Under the pieces are notes generated by a model, which was not told where the DNA came from, searched no databases, and saw only the letters and a list, made by a program, of their open reading frames with translations. This document shows, piece after piece, positions 7,231-64,000 of a stretch of DNA of 64,000 nucleotides. Source of the stretch: Nymphaea colorata. Lineage: Eukaryota; Streptophyta; Magnoliopsida; Nymphaeales; Nymphaeaceae. The translations under genes were made by a program, and so were the position numbers. Every line of letters begins with the position of its first letter. The stretch's first letter is position 1. The stretch lies in assembly GCF_008831285.2 (NCBI RefSeq), contig NC_045139.1, positions 3,570,704 to 3,634,703 of the forward strand. The letters run 5' to 3'.

Positions 7231-8945
7231 CATTTATTATAAGCACATAACTGTATTGTGATCAGGAAAGGGTATATATATTTAAAAAACTTGGTTGTTA
7301 ATATTGGATTTGGATCATATTTGGATCAATTTATATTGATTGGCTGCTGCCATTATCTTGTCGCTAGCAAATATCAGTATTTCAAATTTTGGATCTTTCA
7401 GACCATCCATATAGGAGATCCAGATCCACTTTTCCGATTTTCAGTCAAAACATTCATTCTCTAATTAAAAAGGTGCAACCTCTAAAGTCTAAAGAGGAGA
7501 GCACTTCAGTTTTGAACCCAAGACGTCCTCTCCTGCTCTCTCTGCACTTACAGAGCATTTGATAGCCCCAGATTTGAAATCCTAAGTTTTTATGGATTTC
7601 AGATCCGACCTTTCCCTCTTTGATCTTAAACTCCATCATTTTCTCAATGCAAAGAAGTAAAATAAGGTTTTAATAGCGTGGATCTGAGGTTTCACCTAGC
7701 ATTGTGAGTTTGATGACTCGTGGATTTTATTACAATTTTTTTACCATATCAGTAAACCAATGCCACGTTAGATTTACATTAGATCCGTGATTTCAATTCA
7801 GAAATAATCAAACACCACTTTAGAGAATTCAGTTGAGGCATTGAAGTTGAAGAATATGTTAAATTTTATACTCGAATCTTACACTCATTTGTTGCATTTT
7901 ATAGCCATGGATCTAAGATATAATGCTGCATTAAAAGATGTGCTTCTCAAGATCCTTAGTTTAAACTCTGTAATGTTTAATCAACGTTACGTTTTAAAAT
8001 CCATGGCTTTAATGTCAGATGGAGTGACGGGGTGAGTCTGATCTTAAATTCATGGATGAGATTCTATGGATCTTTGAGATCTGCAATGAAACAAATACAC
8101 TCTTAGGATTGAGGCCACTAAGACTAAACAAGATTATGGTTGACAGACCTTATTAGATTAAATCCACTTTCTTTAATTTGTGCACTTAGCACAACCTGAT
8201 TCTTACTTGAGGTTAATATTGTCATGTAGTTATTTGCATCATTATTTTCAGTTTTCAACGCCTTTATATGAAGGAGGATGAACTAAATCATGTTCTTAGT
8301 AAGAAAAATATCATATCGGTCGAGAGAGAGGACTGGTGAGATAGAACTTGACCATGATCAATATACTCTCAAGTTGGTATATTTTAAAGGACTCGTAATG
8401 TAAGTTGAAACATAGGGGAGACATTATCTAGAGGCACCAAAAGTAGGCCTGGTACCTTATGGGGATGATGGAAAGGTGTGGCGGGCTTTGGCTCTCAGTT
8501 GAGTAGTAAGATAAAATACTCTTCCTACTCACTCAAAAAGGATCCATAGTGTAATTCAACGGACCTTGGATATCAAACTTATGGGGTAATTTGAAACATG
8601 ACCAAATGAAGTGAACCAGAGGCTAAAAGCAAGTATTGAAAATTAACTGAGAAATAAACAACATACAACTGAGACAACTAAACAAGTGATTTGATATCCC
8701 ATAACCACAACTTTGTTACAAAATCAATCCTAGGACCCTTTTTTGTGGAGATAGGAAATACGGATCTAGATTTAATTACATAAATCTGGATCTATCTAGA
8801 TCCAATTACATAGATATGAATGGTACTTCATGGATCTTTACAATATAGATACAAAATAGGGTCCAACCAAACAAACGAACAAAAAAAAAATCCAGACCTT
8901 AGGTCTAGATTGTAAATCAATTGTGATTAGTCGCCTTATTGGCCA

Positions 8946-9126
8946 CAAGTGCGGAGCTAGAAATTTCTGATGGGCAGCAATACTAAACAAGTAAACCAAC
9001 AAAAGGACTCTCCTCTTGGGAATCAATATGGGAATAACCAATTTTTTTTAATCTGTGTGGGCATATGGGAATAACCATTTTCTGTGAATCTGTGTGGGCA
9101 ACTGCCCACACTTGGCTCAGCCCCTG
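8946..9126. mobile_element. hAT-like MITE with 8-bp target duplication
   Basis: The element is flanked by ATTGGCCA (8938-8945) and ATTGGTCA (9127-9134), an 8-bp duplication with one mismatch. The ends CAAGTGCGGAGCTAG and (complement) CAGGGGCTGAGCCAA are imperfect inverted repeats. It holds two copies of a phrase containing GTGTGGGCA. The same insertion, with the same flanks, sits in the right arm at 62792-62972, so it predates the inverted duplication. Confidence 0.8.
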
Positions 9127-61203: not shown

Positions 61204-64000
61204 GTTGTTCGTTTTTTTAGTGTAATTAGTGACTAACCTCGGTTTAGATTTGTCGCTTCTTTTGTGCTAATTAAAGCTGGTTTTGGTGGTTTTGCTTCTG
61301 CAGATGGATAATGGAAAACGGATGCATCGCTTCTCATCAGCATTGATACATACAAATAGTGTTCTCCTTTACACTTTTTTTTTTTATTATTAATGTTGTC
61401 GCTTTATACATCTAATTCTTAAAAGAAGAAACTTGAATTCATTTCTCAAAACTTTGTTAAGCTTAGTAATGAATTAATGTTATTTGGTTCATGGCTCACC
61501 CGTTTGTTGATATATTTTCTTTTTAGTTCTGCCTTCACATGACTCATTGTCACCCTTTTGATAATACATTTTCTTTTTATTGGGTGTAGATGTTAAGAGC
61601 TCGAACAAGGAGTTCAAAAGTGCAATATACAAGTTGAATCAATATTAATGCTTAAATATCTGAGTATAAAACTAGTTAACGTTGGTAGCTCTATTCCTCC
61701 TTCCTCATCTATCTCGTTAAATCTCTTTTCTTACAAGAGCCAAACCCTCGGCGGAATTGCAACTGTTTAAAATGGTATAAAACATTAGGGTTTAATTTCC
61801 AGAATATATATCTTGAATTCAGCTTTGTCACCAGATAATAATCTAATCAACGGATCATAATGAAATCAAATGTGCCCTTTATCGTATCTTTTTCTTATCG
61901 GATATTCATGTACTCGGAGAAAAGTCTTATACCATATCTCATTTTAAATCCAAAACATTCAAATTCTTAATACGACTTTTACATTCATATTTGAATCTGA
62001 ATTCAACTTGTAAATGCTCAACCAAATCTAAACCACGTTATGGTATATATGTTAGTGATTGATTTTCAAAATGTACAAATATTGGAGAACAAGTCTAAAA
62101 CCAAATGTGAGTATGATTGGGTGTCATTTTTTAAGTCCAATTCAAATTTCTGAATCGAATATTAAATTTTTTTCCATACCCCATATTTTTAAAGTATACA
62201 ATTCTGTCAGGTGTCCGAACGGAATCAAATCCATTGGCATCCTCACTAGTTTTGAATGGAAGCTGTGGTTCTTCTAGGAATACATATACTATTGCATGCC
62301 ATTATTTTCTTTTTTCATATTTGCTCTCTCTATAATTCATTAGCCAACACGATCACTTCATGAACTTTTGCTTTCAACATAAGTTTGCAGTATTTTGGAT
62401 TGATCTGTGCAGTATTATAATGCCGCACAGAAGAAGTTGGTTGTGCATCTAAAAATTGGAATCGAGTTCAGATGTGAAATTAGAAGTCAGACTTAGACCG
62501 GATTCAAATGGTAGATTTTACAATCGGATATGCATACTACATATATTTTTCTTTATTCTTATTTGAATCTGAATTTAAAGGAAATACGTAAGCATCCTTT
62601 TCATTTTCACAAAATTATATAATTTGAGCACATTTTGTATGCACAATTCTGTAGAACCCTATTTGGTGTCTATCAGAGAACTGACTATACTGTACACTAC
62701 CTAATGAATCAATCATTCTGTTCAGAAAACGGATTAGAGCCTTTGAATCTACACAAAAATAACGGAAGCAACCATCACAAGGGTGACCAATCAGGGGCTG
62801 AGCCAAGTGTGGGCAGTTGCCCACACAGATTCACAGAAAATGGTTATTCCCATATGCCCACACAGATTAAAAAAAATTGGTTATTCCCATATTGATTCCC
62901 AAGAGGAGAGTCCTTTTGTTGGTTTACTTGTTTAGTATTGCTGCCCATCAGAAATTTCTAGCTCCGCACTTGTGGCCAATAAGGCGACTAATCACAATTG
63001 ATTTACAATCTAGACCTAAGGTCTGGATTTTTTTTTTGTTCGTTTGTTTGGTTGGACCCTATTTTGTATCTATATTGTAAAGATCCATGAAGTACCATTC
63101 ATATCTATGTAATTGGATCTAGATAGATCCAGATTTATGTAATTAAATCTAGATCCGTATTTCCTATCTCCACAAAAAAGGGTCCTAGGATTGATTTTGT
63201 AACAAAGTTGTGGTTATGGGATATCAAATCACTTGTTTAGTTGTCTCAGTTGTATGTTGTTTATTTCTCAGTTAATTTTCAATACTTGCTTTTAGCCTCT
63301 GGTTCACTTCATTTGGTCATGTTTCAAATTACCCCATAAGTTTGATATCCAAGGTCCGTTGAATTACACTATGGATCCTTTTTGAGTGAGTAGGAAGAGT
63401 ATTTTATCTTACTACTCAACTGAGAGCCAAAGCCCGCCACACCTTTCCATCATCCCCATAAGGTACCAGGCCTACTTTTGGTGCCTCTAGATAATGTCTC
63501 CCCTATGTTTCAACTTACATTACGAGTCCTTTAAAATATACCAACTTGAGAGTATATTGATCATGGTCAAGTTCTATCTCACCAGTCCTCTCTCTCGACC
63601 GATATGATATTTTTCTTACTAAGAACATGATTTAGTTCATCCTCCTTCATATAAAGGCGTTGAAAACTGAAAATAATGATGCAAATAACTACATGACAAT
63701 ATTAACCTCAAGTAAGAATCAGGTTGTGCTAAGTGCACAAATTAAAGAAAGTGGATTTAATCTAATAAGGTCTGTCAACCATAATCTTGTTTAGTCTTAG
63801 TGGCCTCAATCCTAAGAGTGTATTTGTTTCATTGCAGATCTCAAAGATCCATAGAATCTCATCCATGAATTTAAGATCAGACTCACCCCGTCACTCCATC
63901 TGACATTAAAGCCATGGATTTTAAAACGTAACGTTGATTAAACATTACAGAGTTTAAACTAAGGATCTTGAGAAGCACATCTTTTAATGCAGCATTATAT
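61204..64000. other. Outer right arm, no additional gene
   Basis: 3' flank of the F-box gene and repeat-derived DNA, including the inverted copies of the repeat at 9320-9900 (about 62020-62600) and of the MITE. Open frames here are identical in both arms because the DNA is, but none has a recognisable domain. Confidence 0.6.
62792..62972. mobile_element. hAT-like MITE, right-arm copy
   Basis: Inverted counterpart of 8946-9126, with the same 8-bp flanks (TGACCAAT and TGGCCAAT on this strand). Confidence 0.8.

Follow-up and report, generated by a model that had tools for sequence, protein, structure and literature searches.

Inverted arms and their F-box genes

The DNA analysed here, a 64,000-nucleotide stretch of Nymphaea colorata hereafter called the window, corresponds to positions 3,570,704–3,634,703 on C2, a sequence of 36.3 Mb; the genome assembly comprises 407.8 Mb in 783 contigs. 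Two long inverted arms, each carrying an intact F-box gene, lie on either side of a spacer, and they resemble each other in a mosaic of near-identical and strongly diverged tracts that was probably shaped by gene conversion. An earlier note on this DNA had proposed an inverted duplication with F-box genes and a 45-kb spacer. Self-BLAST of the window confirmed this architecture, with a 472-amino-acid F-box open reading frame (ORF) in each arm and a spacer measuring 44,875 bp, and the structure proved larger than first described.

Coordinates follow window numbering, L denoting the left arm and R the right arm, with R values above 64000 lying beyond the window. In the self-BLAST, 7918–12387 pairs with 64000–59539 at 98.3% identity over 4,474 columns; further inward, 12341–13303 matches 59453–58417 in two pieces of approximately 79–80% identity, and a 103-column piece carries the homology to its innermost point at 13402/58278. 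When 50 kb of flanking DNA was added on each side of the window (5 kb of the left piece consisting of N), the outermost homology was reached at approximately L 4900 and R 67712, which gives a left arm (L 4900–13402) of approximately 8.5 kb and a right arm (R 58278–67712) of approximately 9.4 kb, the outer 3.7 kb of the latter lying beyond the window end. Position 7918, the outermost position given earlier, is only the point where the right arm exits the window, and the flanking DNA adds two near-identical patches and two diverged segments outward of the main block.

One chromosome (C2) carries both arms, and the sequence between them contains no N. Exactly 5,000 consecutive N, at window positions −4999 to 0, abut the first base of the window, with a GA microsatellite on their right side. 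They probably represent an assembly gap, which neither arm includes, and no N occurs within the window. Because the window holds the spacer and the inner parts of both arms without any N, and because unrelated sequence follows where the homology stops on either side, an artificial joining of the two arms appears unlikely from the sequence.

Mosaic divergence and a step within one reading frame

Over the 8,262 aligned sites of L 4900–13402, the arms differ at 456. Change-point segmentation divides the alignment into six alternating segments with 1.4, 19.5, 0.8, 26.9, 0.4 and 16.4% differences (table 1), the fourth value being rough since the alignment of 6068–6603 is poor in part, and reaches a log-likelihood (lnL) of −1271 versus −1764 for a single rate. 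A profile in 100-column windows of the alignment is likewise non-uniform and displays a sharp mosaic, in agreement with the patchy identity noticed earlier. Altogether, the near-identical tracts account for 5,981 of the 8,262 sites (288 + 381 + 5,312). The second segment also contains right-arm insertions of 515, 119, 84, 82 and 52 bp (within R 67424–66087).

Table 1. Coordinates of the arms, their segments, the F-box genes and the spacer (window numbering).
Feature	Position	Strand	Remarks
Near-identical patch 1, left arm	4900..5189	+	4/288 sites differ; partner R 67712–67425
Diverged segment, left arm	5190..5654	+	89/457 differ; partner R 67424–66087
Near-identical patch 2, left arm	5655..6067	+	3/381 differ; partner R 66086–65699
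Diverged segment, left arm, partly dispersed short repeat (~6058–6230)	6068..6603	+	100/372 differ
Main near-identical block, left arm	6604..11925	+	22/5,312 differ; partner R 65304–59992
Substitution-free stretch of main block	7009..10134	+	0/3,116 aligned sites; no gene recognised
Left copy of the F-box gene, intact ORF of 472 aa	10714..12132	-	Pfam PF00646, E 2.9e-12, 46.4 bits
Inner diverged segment, left arm: F-box codons 1–69 and 5′ flank	11926..13402	+	238/1,452 differ; partner R 59991–58278
Spacer, 44,875 bp, with tandem PAP2 (lipid phosphate phosphatase-like) gene-region copies	13403..58277	.	
Right arm within window	58278..64000	-	continues to ~67712
Right copy of the F-box gene, intact ORF of 472 aa	59785..61203	+	Pfam PF00646, E 1.4e-10, 41 bits

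The most striking part of the main block is its substitution-free stretch, in which the sole gap is a 10-bp AT-microsatellite indel at 7197. The longest difference-free run obtained in 5,000 permutations across all sites was 255 sites, versus the 3,116 observed; when differences were permuted within the near-identical block only, the maximum was 2,638 and none of 20,000 permutations reached 3,116. The mosaic is therefore not a product of chance, given the lnL gain of the segmentation and a difference-free run beyond all permutations. No ORF of at least 150 aa occurs in 7009–10134. Its GC content is 33.8%, versus 34.3% in the outer left arm, 38.0 and 36.2% in the inner left and right arms, respectively, and 36.3% in the spacer; GC-biased conversion thus leaves no sign in the composition, which is a weak test.

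Outside this stretch, the near-identical tracts are homogeneous at approximately 1% divergence (4/288, 3/381 and 22/2196; p = 0.74). Within the main block, 11 of 445 sites differ at 10135–10579 versus 6 of 1346 at 10580–11925, and 5 of 405 at 6604–7008. Several local statements of the earlier note were borne out by this alignment: 8838–9860, described as almost identical, shows no difference at all; the four or so differences counted in 57 bp at 10240–10330 correspond to substitutions at 10259, 10269, 10279 and 10295; the body of the F-box gene is nearly identical; and the inner 1.4 kb is heavily diverged. In this inner segment, the flank outside the F-box ORF (12133–13402) differs at 217 of 1,245 sites. 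The residual differences comprise 7 transitions and 15 transversions in the main block and 118 and 120, respectively, in the inner segment, the numbers being small. Divergence between the arms changes in abrupt steps that go beyond coding constraint.

One of these steps falls inside the F-box genes, both of which score above the PF00646 cut-off of 20.5 bits. As their reading frame is uninterrupted, it was taken as one exon. Arm-to-arm synonymous divergence (dS) is 0.149 in codons 1–69 (6 of 44.5 synonymous sites) versus 0.007 in codons 70–472 (2 of 276.3; Fisher p = 1.3e-4, counts rounded), and non-synonymous divergence (dN) is 0.099 and 0.004 in the same two parts. The two proteins are accordingly near-identical from codon 70 on, and their first 69 residues, which include the start of the F-box domain, differ.

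As outgroup, the analysis used a third F-box paralogue, which is more distant and also lies on C2 (approx. 14.245 Mb; 462 aa, approx. 50% amino-acid identity; ORF 4465–5853 of the extracted stretch). Measured against the left and right copies, respectively, its dS is 0.765 and 0.749 over codons 1–69, of which 64 were aligned, versus 0.780 and 0.769 over codons 70–472, of which 378 of 403 were aligned. Synonymous change therefore accrues alike in both parts of the gene, and solely the arm-to-arm divergence drops. Judged by this paralogue, which aligns poorly over the first 44 codons, 9 of the 21 differences in codons 1–69 look derived in the left copy and 6 in the right. Both copies thus seem to have diverged there, and a one-sided decay of one copy was not seen.

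Genome-wide searches scored the best candidates only, very common words being skipped. The outermost patch (4900–5207) matched just two of the places scored in the genome, namely the arm pair, and for 5632 to approximately 6057 the arm partner is the sole match among the matches listed. The adjacent stretch (approx. 6058–6230) is a dispersed short repeat with at least 38 further genomic places (best 40 of 709 candidates for 5632–6230). An F-box probe (10800–11200) retrieved the two arms and one place at 75% identity, and 12133–13402 retrieved the arm partner and one weak place at 69%. For the core (7198–10134), the matches comprise both arms, short microsatellites and, at 72–88%, relatives of other pieces; 30 of the 47 matches listed (best 40 of 488 candidates) fall in 7545–7828, a single short dispersed repeat of 68–80% identity. 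The miniature inverted-repeat transposable element (MITE) that had been assigned to both arms is thus at least a dispersed repeat. Because the relatives seen stand at approximately 68–88% identity, i.e. are old, such MITE-like repeats gave no date for conversion. From these searches, in which 10135–10713 was not examined on its own and 6231–7197 was not included, the homogenized region does not stem from independent multi-copy insertion. The near-identical tracts are likewise not ascribed to separate insertions of a young mobile element: among the candidates scored, 4900–5207, 5632 to approximately 6057 and the inner flank showed no other close relatives, and the F-box probe found nothing besides the arms and the place at 75%.

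Older relatives of arm-core pieces were also detected at window 76340–77154, approximately 9 kb past the right arm, and at C2:3885451–3885972, mostly at 73–77% identity with one short piece at 87%. Among seven ORFs from 4814–7090, two of them at patch 1, none gave a Pfam match above cut-off.

Probable gene conversion and competing explanations

Gene conversion is the simplest cause of this pattern, since dS falls from 0.149 to 0.007 across one codon boundary with equal outgroup dS, and since three alike tracts lie among segments diverged by 16–27%. A single duplication date is inadequate, as had been argued from the sequence beforehand: it fits neither the dS step within one frame nor the alternation of near-identical and diverged segments. 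The accompanying proposal of conversion in chosen tracts holds for the conversion, which the mosaic and the dS step support, and lacks support for the choice, no tract-selecting feature having been found. We estimate at roughly 85% the probability that this locus represents an old inverted segmental duplication, partly homogenized by ectopic (non-allelic) gene conversion from arm to arm in at least two episodes. The old duplication would have placed one F-box gene in each of the two arms, of approximately 8.5–9.4 kb, around the 45-kb spacer, and a break in one arm would have been repaired with the other arm as template. An older episode probably homogenized patches across 4900–11925, now approximately 1% diverged, and a later one probably erased all substitutions in 7009–10134; the outcome would be F-box proteins that are alike from codon 70 and distinct in their N-terminal 69 residues.

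A substitution rate of 7e-9 per site per year was taken as the upper bound. The lower bound, 2.5e-9, is the figure quoted for Populus tremula in PMC7023750. Between these two rates, the inner diverged segment would be approximately 13–37 million years old, the 1% tracts 0.7–2 million years and the substitution-free stretch less than 0.07–0.19 million years, all of these being scale figures only.

Several points weigh against gene conversion in this form. The process is deduced from one assembly, not observed directly, and its direction is not readable there. A strict change-point penalty left the 5.3-kb block unsplit, the substitution-free stretch resting on the permutation test, and this stretch is without an outgroup along its length. 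In addition, the assembly was likely polished with short reads, and polishing can overwrite differences between near-identical copies. Lastly, the divergence of approximately 1% shared by the three tracts also fits a young duplication, provided that the diverged segments came from elsewhere.

This last scenario assumes a young inverted duplication (approx. 1%) in which a lost paralogue, or else a highly divergent haplotype, later supplied homologous but different sequence that now makes up the diverged segments. The common divergence of approximately 1% of all near-identical tracts apart from the substitution-free stretch speaks for it. However, it needs three separate imports of 73–84% similar sequence from a donor that is not seen in the assembly (for 12133–13402, the arm partner and the weak 69% place were the only matches found), as well as an additional recent event for the substitution-free stretch, so that we regard it as improbable. 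Parts of the arms might instead stay alike through purifying selection or because the local mutation rate is low, and the F-box frame is indeed intact in both arms. The most alike part, however, contains no recognised gene, and arm-to-arm synonymous divergence changes 20-fold at codon 69/70 with divergence from the third paralogue unchanged; the probability of this explanation is therefore close to nil.

A technical origin deserves attention for the exact identity of 7009–10134, where the consensus of one arm could have been copied onto the other during assembly or short-read polishing, the rest of the mosaic being real. The published N. colorata assembly was generated from PacBio RSII reads with Canu and Arrow and was then finished with Pilon, according to the methods given in PMC7015852, and it is presumably the assembly used here. 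The adjoining 1% tracts nevertheless retain their differences (11/445 at 10135–10579 and 5/405 at 6604–7008); the copies were therefore kept apart there. Moreover, polishing would hardly create steps from approximately 19 to 1% or a dS step within a reading frame. Polishing might thus account for the exact zero but not for the mosaic, and even for the zero we consider it quite unlikely; an artefact of this kind would be compatible with the older conversion episode.

Going further than arm-to-arm conversion as set out above, one may speculate that the locus is an active autosomal ‘palindrome’, in which recombination between the arms homogenizes them and occasionally flips the orientation of the 45-kb spacer along with the PAP2 cluster, both orientations segregating in the species. 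Conversion halting in the F-box frame would then preserve identity in the C-terminal part, which presumably binds the substrate, and let the N-termini diverge. We view this extension as doubtful.

Related systems and neighbouring features

Ectopic conversion between duplicated plant genes, for instance in resistance-gene clusters, leads to patchy homogenization of regional paralogues, and the coffee SH3 locus is reportedly an example of such a cluster. Unlike these clusters, the present locus has partners in inverted orientation, the searches revealed just two close copies, and most of the alike DNA contains no recognised gene. Among inverted repeats, palindromes of the human Y chromosome such as P6 are described as kept alike by arm-to-arm gene conversion (PMC3723533); the same process would act here, yet the near-identical tracts cover only part of the aligned sites (5,981 of 8,262). 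In plants, the W chromosome of Salix purpurea has palindromes for which PMC7023750 reports 20-kb arms in the sex-determining region, a test with a second species, and limited regions, e.g. 3 kb without paralogous variants, ascribed to gene conversion. As far as that account goes, both cases involve plant inverted repeats with genic arms thought to be older than the arm identity implies. They differ in that the arms here are 8.5–9.4 kb long around a 45-kb spacer, that near-identical tracts alternate with 16–27% divergence and that one species was considered. The locus is, in addition, smaller and patchier, and is not known as part of a sex-determining region.

In the literature on F-box conversion or concerted evolution, on inverted paralogues and on conversion in Nymphaea, no account of this locus was found among the titles and abstract openings listed, few subscription papers being included. 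Arm-to-arm conversion itself is well known, also from palindromes on mammalian sex chromosomes, and the locus is a clear, ordinary case of it. It offers a clean natural example of apparent ectopic conversion between arms separated by 45 kb, probably in an early-branching angiosperm, where a step inside one reading frame, together with an outgroup paralogue as control, separates conversion from selection. It also cautions that dS over a whole gene may mislead when duplicates of this kind are dated, as the whole-gene value obtained here (0.025) blends 0.149 and 0.007.

Further repeats lie around the inner ends of the arms and in the spacer. In the inner diverged segment of the right arm, 59407–59582 is a tandem array of a 44-bp unit in approximately four copies, 98–99% identical, opposite a gap in the left arm. 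An inverted element of approximately 105 bp (13405–13513 and 51944–52051, approx. 91% identical) starts just 3 bp away from where the left arm ends inwardly and may mark the old breakpoint. In the spacer, a gene region is directly duplicated in tandem (26405–33499 and 34636–40889), its copies agreeing patchily at approx. 75–91% identity, and 53944–56028 holds a third, partial copy (approx. 76–86%); the ORF at 39740–40294, in the sole tandem copy scanned, matches PAP2. A 295-aa ORF at 45810–46697 contains a long stretch of acidic residues (Glu/Asp) and gave no match in Pfam, and 42637–42973 contains a 162-bp direct duplication, 98.8% identical, at an offset of 175 bp.
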